From a virus, in IMG/VR virus record IMGVR_UViG_3300046809_000656, positions 1-28,010 of that record: a stretch of 28,010 bases of DNA; one strand, given 5' to 3'. Position 1 is the stretch's first letter. Each line of letters begins with the position of its first letter. The notes under the pieces were generated by a model that was given only the letters and a program-made list of their open reading frames with translations, did no database searches and was not told where the DNA came from. A program made the position numbers and the translations under genes. Positions 24,217-28,010 of the stretch are shown piece after piece.

Positions 24217-25805
24217 TAGGCTAGCATCCTTTCTGGGGCGTAGGGATCGTATTCGATTTCGACGAGGGGCTTGTGTGGATGGTCGCCACCGGCTTCGACG
24301 TTGTTGCGGGCGAGGGGACCGCCGAAGGTGCAGAAGAGAGCGTCGAGGTAGTCGAGTTCGAGGTCCGGGTTGTCGTCGAGGAGGTCCTCTTTGGCGACGA
24401 GTTGGATTTCCAGCTTTTTGGTGAAGATGTATTTGATGGAGAGCATGGCCGTGCGGAGGTCGGGGTCGGGTGGGAGGAGGCCGGTTTTGAGCCATGCACG
24501 AAGGGCGCCGGCCATAGCAGAGCGCTTGTTGACGTATTTCTCGCCTTGGTTGTCGAAGACGACGCCGGTGATGTCGTCCTTGCCGCCGAATTGGACTTCG
24601 TGAATGTAGAGGCGCTGGTTGCGACAGATGTCGACGACGCCGCCGCCAACGCCGCCGCCATCGATGAAGATGCCATCGGGGCGGTACTGGGTGAAGGCGG
24701 AGTGGATTTGGTTGGCGAGCTCGACGGTGCTAACGCCTTGGTACATGCGCTTGTCGATGGAGCGGGCATCGCGGCCTTTGCGGAAGGCGAGGATGGATTT
24801 GTTGCGACCGTAGCGGGCCACGTCGACGCCGAGGGCGAGTGGGGTGAAGGCGTCGACGAAGGCTTCGCGGTCGGGGGACATGGCCGCGTCGATGTCGGTG
24901 GCGGAGAAGAACTCCATTTCGCCAGTCTTGGGGAATTGACCGAGCCAGCGAATGCGGACGTAGTCGTTGTCGTCGCCATTGTAGGCGGCGATCTTCTTGG
25001 CGATGTATTTCTTGTCGGTGATGGCGACAGTGCGGGAGTCGATTTGGCGATGTTGCCACATGGCCTCGAAGCGGCCACCATCGAAGCATTCGCGGAAGCG
25101 CCCGGTGTTGCGAGTGGGGTTGCCGAAGACTAGCCAGATGCGCTGAGTGTCGGCATCGGAGAAGGCGCCCTCGATGGTTTCCCAGATGATGTCGGCGATG
25201 GTGGAGGCTTCGTCGAAGATGATGATAAGGCGCTTGCCTTTGTTGTGCATCCCGGCAAAGGCCTCGGGGTTGGTTTCGGACCAGGCGATCATGTCGATGC
25301 GCCAGGTGCGTTCGCGGGTGGGGTCTTTGGAGACTAAGCTGGTGGCGTTTAGGGTGAAGTGATCGCGGGTGAACCAGCAGAGGTTGAACCAGCGACCGAG
25401 TTCGGCCCAAGTTTTGGTCTTCAGTTGGGTTTCGGTGTTAGCCGTGACCACTCCCCTACAATCTGGATAGGTAGTAAACGCCCACAGGATAAGCATTGAA
25501 ACAAGAGCACTCTTTCCAACCCCGTGGCCGGAGGCCGTGGCGAGTTGGATTGCTTCGTCCATAGTACACAAGCCAAGCCGTACTTGCTCCATAATGTCTC
25601 GTTGCCAGTCGAGGGGCCCATCGAATTTCTCCAATACGGTGCCGGGTTCGCCCCAGGGGAAGGCGCCGAGGCAGAAGGCGAGGGGGTCGTCGGCGACAGA
25701 GGCTAGCCAGGAGAGGAGTTCGTCGGACATGCTGGTGGCGGGGTCAAGGGACCCAGCAAGATCAAGCCCGGGAGATGTCCGACGATCCGCAGGGCGATCT
25801 AGCAT
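24216..25805 (-). CDS. terL: Terminase large subunit
   Basis: A 529-residue protein from ATG 25805. Walker A is GHGVGKS (~93-99) and Walker B is LIIIFDEAS (~193-201). RNase H-like nuclease acidic residues lie in LGVDVARYGRNKS (Asp ~328) and IFIDGGGVGGG (Asp ~382), with a third probably in DYLDALF near the end. It drives ATP-powered DNA packaging through the portal and cuts genome ends. I chose the 25805 start because AAGGGA lies just upstream. An ATG at 25730 (before SDELLSWLAS) is the main alternative. The 14-nt spacer after the small subunit gene forms one arm of a perfect inverted repeat that would bury the ribosome-binding site. A stretch around Walker A (about 25440-25600) uses different codons. 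Confidence 0.93.
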   Translation of the reverse strand: MLDRPADRRTSPGLDLAGSLDPATSMSDELLSWLASVADDPLAFCLGAFPWGEPGTVLEKFDGPLDWQRDIMEQVRLGLCTMDEAIQLATASGHGVGKSALVSMLILWAFTTYPDCRGVVTANTETQLKTKTWAELGRWFNLCWFTRDHFTLNATSLVSKDPTRERTWRIDMIAWSETNPEAFAGMHNKGKRLIIIFDEASTIADIIWETIEGAFSDADTQRIWLVFGNPTRNTGRFRECFDGGRFEAMWQHRQIDSRTVAITDKKYIAKKIAAYNGDDNDYVRIRWLGQFPKTGEMEFFSATDIDAAMSPDREAFVDAFTPLALGVDVARYGRNKSILAFRKGRDARSIDKRMYQGVSTVELANQIHSAFTQYRPDGIFIDGGGVGGGVVDICRNQRLYIHEVQFGGKDDITGVVFDNQGEKYVNKRSAMAGALRAWLKTGLLPPDPDLRTAMLSIKYIFTKKLEIQLVAKEDLLDDNPDLELDYLDALFCTFGGPLARNNVEAGGDHPHKPLVEIEYDPYAPERMLA

Positions 25806-25819
25806 GCTGGGTCCCTTGA
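25744..25819 (-). promoter_or_regulatory. Perfect 14-bp inverted repeat enclosing the terL start
   Basis: Arms TCAAGGGACCCAGC at 25744-25757 (plus strand) and its exact reverse complement at 25806-25819. In the leftward mRNA the 5' arm is exactly the 14-nt spacer between the terS stop and terL ATG, and includes the AAGGGA ribosome-binding site. The 48-nt loop is the first 16 codons of terL, and the 3' arm is codons 17-21. The stem would hide the ribosome-binding site unless opened by ribosomes finishing terS. Confidence 0.6.
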
Positions 25820-27116: not shown

Positions 27117-27356
27117 TTAGTCCTTGGTGGCGAGCAGGCTGGCGTTCGCGGCCATGAACGCCTTGATCTGATCGGTGGCGGCGAGCAGGCGCTCCCATTG
27201 GCCAGCGTAGAGGGTGACGGGGAAGCGGCCTAGGCCGTAGATGCTGAGTGCGCCTTTCTCGGACACCTTGAGGGTCAGGGCCTTGGGTTGATTGGACGCC
27301 ATCAGCATGGCGATGAGTTGCTCTTGCGTCAGCTTGGTCAGATCTTGATGGGTCAT
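27117..27356 (-). CDS. Small conserved phage protein
   Basis: A 79-residue protein. ATG 27356 is preceded by TAGGAG. The core KALTLKVSEKGALSIYGLGR followed by FPVTLYAGQWERLL is a pattern I recognise from small phage proteins without assigned function. The helix at the C-terminus is amphipathic. It is transcribed leftward and closed off by the terminator at 27062-27099, so it forms its own unit between the divergent control region and the late operon. An early or regulatory role is possible, but nothing in the sequence proves it. Confidence 0.75.
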   Translation of the reverse strand: MTHQDLTKLTQEQLIAMLMASNQPKALTLKVSEKGALSIYGLGRFPVTLYAGQWERLLAATDQIKAFMAANASLLATKD

Positions 27357-27527
27357 GGGAATTGGCTCCTAGTGCATCGTCGGGGCGGGGTGCCGTCGAC
27401 CCGTGGAGAATGCGCCCGGTCGCCGCCAAACGCAAGCATCATGTTCGCATGGCAGCATTGCGCGGCGTGCATGGATCGCTCGCCCCCAATGGCATTGCTC
27501 TTGCACTTCTCGCGCCCTAGCGCCCTC

Positions 27528-27560
27528 TCATGAGGCTTTCATGAGGCTTTCATGGTCCTC
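27528..27560. repeat. Tandem 11-bp repeats, left flank
   Basis: Two exact copies of TCATGAGGCTT at 27528-27538 and 27539-27549, then a degenerate third (TCATGGTCCTC) at 27550-27560. The first copy lies in the 8-bp palindrome CTCATGAG. An 11-bp period would place the sites on nearly the same face of the helix, as expected for a cooperatively bound protein. Confidence 0.7.
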
Positions 27561-27715
27561 CCATAGACTCATCGGGACGGGGAGGGGTCGTAGCCGTCCG
27601 GCCACGTGTCCGAGCGCTTGCTTGCTAGTAAAATTACACACATATATAGCTAGATAGACAGTCAACCTAACCGACAGACGTGCACAGACCCTAGTTGACC
27701 CGATGAGTCTATGGG
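27560..27715. repeat. Perfect 17-bp inverted repeat around A+T-rich centre
   Basis: CCCATAGACTCATCGGG at 27560-27576 and its exact reverse complement CCCGATGAGTCTATGGG at 27699-27715, separated by 122 nt. With mismatches, the symmetry extends outward into the CATGAG repeats on each side, giving arms of roughly 40-45 bp. The symmetry centre is near 27637. Confidence 0.75.
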
Positions 27716-27720
27716 GGGCA

Positions 27721-27742
27721 CATGAGAGGCCCATGAGGGGGT
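27721..27742. repeat. Tandem 11-bp repeats, right flank
   Basis: CATGAGAGGCC (27721-27731) and CATGAGGGGGT (27732-27742), then a weaker GTGAGGGACGA. These mirror the left-flank 11-mers on the other side of the 17-bp inverted repeat. Confidence 0.5.
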
Positions 27743-27822
27743 GTGAGGGACGAGGATAGTGGCGTGGAGCAATAAACCATGTGAATGCCTCTGGTGAGCC
27801 CTGAAATGGTGGAAGATTTAGC

Positions 27823-27851
27823 TTGCAATCTGCGGATGAGTGTGGTACAAT
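27823..27851 (+). promoter_or_regulatory. Sigma-70-type rightward promoter
   Basis: TTGCAA (27823-27828), a 17-nt spacer, then TACAAT (27846-27851). The expected start near 27858 gives a leader of about 18 nt before the ATG at 27877. The -10 box matches the consensus at five of six positions and the spacing is ideal. Confidence 0.65.
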
Positions 27852-27876: not shown

Positions 27877-28010
27877 ATGCGCGGAAGCACATACCGACTG
27901 ACCTGGATTGATAGTTCAGGCGAGCGGCTTGAGTTGGGCTTAGATTTCAACAACTTCAGCGAGTTGATACTGTATGTGGATAGGTTGTACCCATATCACA
28001 CAAGCTATGG
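27877..28010 (+). CDS. Rightward gene, N-terminal fragment, cut by window edge
   Basis: ATG at 27877 with AAGAGG about 8 nt before it, just after the promoter at 27823-27851. The 44 visible codons begin MRGSTYRLTWIDSSGERLEL and continue GLDFNNFSELILYVDRLYPY, without a stop before the edge. It is the only gene read rightward, so it probably starts the phage's other transcription unit (early or middle genes). The family is not recognisable from this length. Confidence 0.6.
   Translation, partial: MRGSTYRLTWIDSSGERLELGLDFNNFSELILYVDRLYPYHTSY

Follow-up and report, generated by a model that had tools for sequence, protein, structure and literature searches.

Between the early and the structural genes of an uncultured phage lies a mirrored array of short repeats, the layout of which is kept among related phages. 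We give a probability of about one half to the reading that proteins bound along it in helical phase regulate the early promoter beside it.

A mirrored repeat in the window

The window analysed here is a virus record of 28,010 bases, in which the genes from endolysin to terminase all point leftward. A perfect 17-bp inverted repeat is formed by CCCATAGACTCATCGGG at 27560-27576 (left arm, - strand) and CCCGATGAGTCTATGGG at 27699-27715 (right arm, + strand), with 122 nt between them (27577..27698) and an A+T-rich centre at about 27628-27660. This repeat is enclosed in arms of 38 bp (27539-27576 and 27699-27736) that are complementary at 32/38 positions (84%), and the dyad score of the window, a simple match/mismatch sum, is 23, whereas no score above 15 arose when the full 28 kb was simulated 20 times with an order-1 Markov model. 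CATGAG units follow at an 11-bp step, at 27529 and 27540 on the left (minus strand, 27527-27543) and at 27721 and 27732 on the right; with one mismatch allowed, this repeat pattern gives 3 matches where 0.17 are expected. The earlier note had described the perfect repeat, a symmetry continuing imperfectly for about 40 bp per side, CATGAG-core 11-bp tandem repeats outside each arm, and an A+T-rich centre with gene units facing away on both sides, all of which are borne out. The genome search it had proposed for the 17-mer and the CATGAG 11-mers found no further copy elsewhere in the 28,010-base record, in which the site is thus single-copy. The reading of the arms as promoters of a single-subunit RNA polymerase was rejected, the inverted 17-mer occurring nowhere else in the record; a search for such a polymerase with PF00940 gave no match, and its control was also silent.

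CATGAG turns out to be one form of a less strict box, ATNAGGG, the copies of which are spaced first by 8 bp on the inner side and then by 11-bp steps. The left array (27525..27572, - strand) reads ATGAGTC, ATGGGAG, ATGAAAG, ATGAAAG and ATGAGAG at spacings of 8, 11, 11 and 11 bp leftwards, and the right array (27703..27750, + strand) reads ATGAGTC, ATGGGGG, ATGAGAG and ATGAGGG plus a degenerate outer box, at 8, 11, 11 and about 10-11 bp. In a comb model, the two 17-bp arms would carry the inner boxes, facing left and right, respectively.

Layout and sequence among the relatives

An exact search with the 17-mer retrieved two near-identical contigs, which have the 544-bp region of the window unchanged. 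Relatives were gathered by searches with TerL (28 loci) and with p79, the first leftward gene (79 aa; 27117..27356, - strand), which is conserved beside the array (80 loci). Most of them have a long imperfect inverted repeat of other sequence 1.6-2.9 kb upstream of TerL. A mirrored array with a dyad score of at least 15 is present in 35 of the 42 distinct loci that combine this gene neighbourhood with an equally oriented p79; because 9 of 69 control stretches on the downstream side of p79 also reach 15, this threshold alone is no proof for single weak arrays. The strongest dyad among the relatives scores 56.5, with arms of 134 bp, and in four of the five long (near-)complete genomes the array is the best dyad, the fifth contig being broken inside it. 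The arms of these phages, which are related to one another, were aligned outward and their boxes called with a hand-set matrix; in general form, each arm contains about 4-6 ATNAGGG boxes at 8, 11, 11 and 11 bp, with an AT-rich centre between the arms. Autocorrelation along the arms reaches 0.387 at 11 bp and 0.352 at 22 bp versus about 0.25, with side peaks at 8, 19 and 30, and A+T content in 32 relatives peaks at the array centre (0.57-0.61 over 40 bp, flanks 0.38). The earlier note had counted a lack of conservation in sister phages against the site; what these phages keep is the architecture, while the letters differ. BLASTN of the array region against phage records gave no match, and Rfam at its gathering threshold found nothing in three relatives. 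We describe a conserved regulatory architecture in an uncultured phage lineage, of a kind that sequence searches alone would miss.

Within a phage the two arms have an identity of 0.69, whereas the same arm compared between phages has 0.43-0.48, and this range holds even where TerL is 80-90% identical. Mirror-partner box units are identical at 0.70 and other pairs at 0.58, so that the likeness of the arms goes beyond the shared box, though only partly. It appears to be the signature of inverted-repeat concerted evolution, which is known to come about when replication switches template from one arm to the other (PMC8604942, PMC7202029). Template switching or gene conversion probably keeps the arms alike while the box sequence drifts, and such matched natural arms provide material on inverted-repeat concerted evolution and on the turnover of binding specificity.

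The arms covary between phages, the RNA fold of the region has a z of -5.7, and mismatches compatible with G-U pairing are in mild excess on one strand (174:122), as might be seen if this were a structure-forming inverted repeat, with paired arms that make a cruciform in DNA or a hairpin in RNA. Nevertheless, about one quarter of the positions are mismatched, more than half of these mismatches being transversions, the loops measure 30-200 nt, and the 11-bp periodicity is left unexplained. Moreover, the predicted promoters fire outward, so that the array would go untranscribed, and we regard pairing of the arms as highly improbable.

Other hairpins occur in the neighbourhood. A second conserved one, GGGATTGCA..TGCAATCCC, lies past the right end of the window (L003 12368-12440) and is found in several relatives at roughly 0.7-1.2 kb from the array in the direction of the early genes; with a predicted RNA fold of -41.8 kcal/mol (z -4.3) and no Rfam match, it is possibly a structured RNA. 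Near the start of TerL, a perfect 15-bp inverted repeat has its halves at 25744-25758 and 25805-25819, 46 nt apart, and many relatives have differing hairpins 30-250 bp before the TerL match.

The main rival to the regulatory reading is a replication origin, at which a phage initiator would bind the mirrored boxes as iterons, melt the A+T-rich centre and start bidirectional replication. Each genome has one array, its A+T-rich centre is flanked symmetrically by iteron-like boxes, and it lies at a switch of GC skew. We rejected the skew as origin evidence, since the switch is explained by an excess of C at third codon positions in both gene blocks, and its polarity is the reverse of that of a bacterial origin. 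DnaA boxes are lacking (8 one-mismatch matches versus 11.2 expected), classical iterons are longer than the 11-bp units found here, and an origin does not predict the phase with the early promoter described below; no recognised replication initiator was found among the phage genes. Of the iteron origin offered as an alternative in the earlier note, the A+T centre and the symmetric iterons stand, but DnaA boxes are missing and the skew reflects codon usage, and we consider an origin unlikely.

The early promoter and the p79 side

The first rightward (early) gene begins at 27877 (27877..28010, + strand; only its start is in the window, and it is complete in L003). Upstream of it lies a predicted sigma70 promoter, TTGCAA-17-TACAAT with TG before the -10 (27823..27851, + strand), which is conserved in about 30 of 34 relatives. 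An unsupervised motif search on the early side yielded TTGACA-17-TATACT, with TGTGG before the -10 and pointing away from the array, in almost all phages. The mean score of the predicted early promoter is 14.1, compared with 5.5 for random windows (99th percentile 13.6). The distance from the -35 to the first box falls into clusters of 48, 56-59, 69-70, 78-79, 84-91, 96-103 and 120 bp, and these distances are in phase at steps of 10.25-10.5 bp (R 0.60-0.62, n=28, permutation p 0.0001; equalled by 0 of 5000 smooth random sets) in a test that was devised post hoc, after inspection of the data. The phasing weakens to p 0.03-0.07 when the set is thinned at 80% TerL identity to 15 phages. No such phase is seen in the controls, which were the distance between the arms, the distances of the centre from the -35 and from the box, and the palindrome on the TerL side.

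The distance between the arms, 94-221 bp in 28 phages, has no helical phase (R 0.11-0.27). Since the array is phased to the early promoter and not arm to arm, we infer that it acts in cis on RNA polymerase, with the arms working independently, rather than through a loop. The earlier note had suggested a looped operator for a regulator controlling both directions: the regulator site in the divergent region gains from the predicted sigma70 promoter helically phased to the array, and the looping loses by the unphased arms of the 28 phages. In such a bidirectional operator, proteins bound to the arms would contact each other over the centre and so hold the two divergent promoters shut, like the p4-p6 hairpin of phi29, which is a precedent (PMC3100819). 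Mirror symmetry, a site between divergent operons and an A+T-rich possible hinge would agree with this, and long flexible loops are compatible with unphased arms; still, phi29 p4 sites are absent, and we hold the loop to be improbable.

In the regulatory reading that we prefer, the array would be a single-copy cis-regulatory element separating the early operon, which runs rightward, from the structural operon, which runs leftward. Copies of one putative protein would occupy the ATNAGGG boxes at each turn of the helix, and may form on each arm a short, outward-pointing filament on one face of the DNA. On the right, this filament would come up against the RNA polymerase of the host at the early promoter, a strong one of sigma70 type, which the accumulating protein would most likely shut down, or tune. 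Shut-off seems likelier than activation because the early promoter is near consensus; against repression, the array can sit 10-70 bp upstream of the promoter, which is less usual for a repressor. The left arm would be a mirrored second filament site towards p79 and terminase. It speaks against this reading that the left promoter is weak, has its own palindrome and is unphased with the array.

For the leftward p79 gene, a weak promoter-like sequence, TTGCGT-17-CATTCT, lies at 27407..27435 (- strand) and has a counterpart motif in relatives, where a palindrome on the TerL side (ATCACGATTTCGTGAT or GCAT type) abuts a weak TTGCAN-17-CATNNT promoter. The mean promoter score on the TerL side is 6.2 (early side 14.1, background 5.5), and the weak promoter may be p79's alone. 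The palindrome travels with p79 where p79 is turned round and is therefore probably p79's own. L066, L083, L089, L093, L107 and L119 have p79 turned round so that it is part of the early operon, and they lack the mirrored array; some of these loci retain the p79 palindrome-promoter. The idea that the array is part of the p79 gene was rejected, given bacterial p79 loci without the array and turned-p79 phages without a mirrored one; since the bacterial homologues lack it, the array belongs to the phage locus. The p79 family (KVSEKGALSVYGLGRFPVTLY) occurs in more than 500 bacterial genome loci, mainly MAGs, from Acidobacteria, Bdellovibrio-like and other groups, the relatives in Acidobacteria and Bdellovibrio-like MAGs giving a hint only of the host. 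The predicted fold of p79 is weakly PC4-like (Z 3.8), for which we make no family claim. L113 and L114, which are without this TerL neighbourhood, have upstream of p79 a 29-bp inverted repeat (28/29); its halves are separated by 145 bp, and its centre is at -168 relative to p79.

The terminase genes are near the array, and the array might be a pac or cos site for packaging, recognised by the small terminase subunit, the gene of which is 1 kb away. The TerS candidate does have the highest partial correlation with box variation, although it is non-significant (0.15, p 0.072). Mirror symmetry gives no direction for packaging, and where contigs end at the array, the assembly seems to have broken at the repeat or at low-complexity DNA, which leaves a packaging site very doubtful. 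The array as a physical genome end was likewise rejected: G005 ends symmetrically within both arms with the middle missing, which looks like an assembly break. Box variation tracks none of p79, TerS, TerL and p222. No clear DNA-binding fold match was obtained for p79 or p222, structure comparison of p222 gave no match, and no recognised regulator was found among the core genes. An HTH_3 (XRE-type) domain is encoded in an early gene of G002 (44129-44236) and was not found in the other four genomes. The array can serve as an anchor for finding the regulator or initiator of the lineage.

Carrier phages and related systems

The array carriers look like a lineage of podovirus-like, lytic-looking soil phages of 49-50 kb, whose genomes encode DNA polymerase A, a UvrD-like helicase, a PD-(D/E)XK nuclease and AAA genes. 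Integrase and serine recombinase (PF00589, PF07508) are absent from five (near-)complete relatives, with controls that matched, and ParA-type PF13614 is absent from the phage genomes, with a good control; it is because none of these was found that the phages look lytic. The PF06406 search for ParM gave no match, nor did its control, and the search for winged-helix RDF proteins gave one sub-threshold PF12728 match in G003 and none for PF05930. A virion-side protein of 1,933 aa with an LPD22 domain (L033 6655-12456) has relatives in all five long genomes.

Three known systems come nearest to the array, those of phi29 and of Apl/Xis being the closest in the way they work. R1-type parC centromeres have a promoter with a block of 11-bp repeats on either side, and resemble the array in having two 11-bp repeat blocks around an A+T-rich centre; the R1 repeats all run in one direction, whereas those described here are mirrored, and a ParA-type ATPase is absent. 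The A2c/A2b-A3 early-late region of phi29, controlled by p4 and p6 (PMC3100819), is likewise a single site that divides early from late operons and has promoters of host sigma70 type, which are predicted for the array; its cooperative nucleoprotein control would correspond to that proposed here. In phi29 the early promoter is strong and the late one poor; the mean predicted scores beside the array are 14.1 and 6.2, though the weak promoter may be p79's alone. Unlike the array, phi29 has no mirrored arms of 11-bp direct repeats, and no concerted arms are described for it; its p4 sites are CTTTTT-N15-AAAATG inverted repeats, of which the window has 6 matches (up to 3 mismatches), fewer than chance, and the array none.

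In phage 186, the Apl operators, like other arrays for excisionases (Xis/Cox), consist of direct repeats at the helical turn (PMC7498355). They have direct repeats 10-11 bp apart between opposed phage promoters, as does the present array with its autocorrelation at 11 and 22 bp, and the cooperative head-to-tail binding of Apl would be a further likeness to the proposed filament. However, the Apl array is one-directional and comes with att sites and an integrase, while the present array is mirrored and no integrase or recombinase was found. No mirrored array was found described in the literature consulted, which lay mostly outside subscription papers. We tentatively suggest an undescribed class of phage control element, namely mirrored phased arrays, one per genome, that may act as the early/structural master switch, with the specificity of a DNA-binding protein co-evolving and with concerted evolution of the two arms so rapid that sister phages have the layout in common but not the sequence. 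In its working the array resembles a phased operator array, and we class it as a variant, not a member, of the known helically phased operators.
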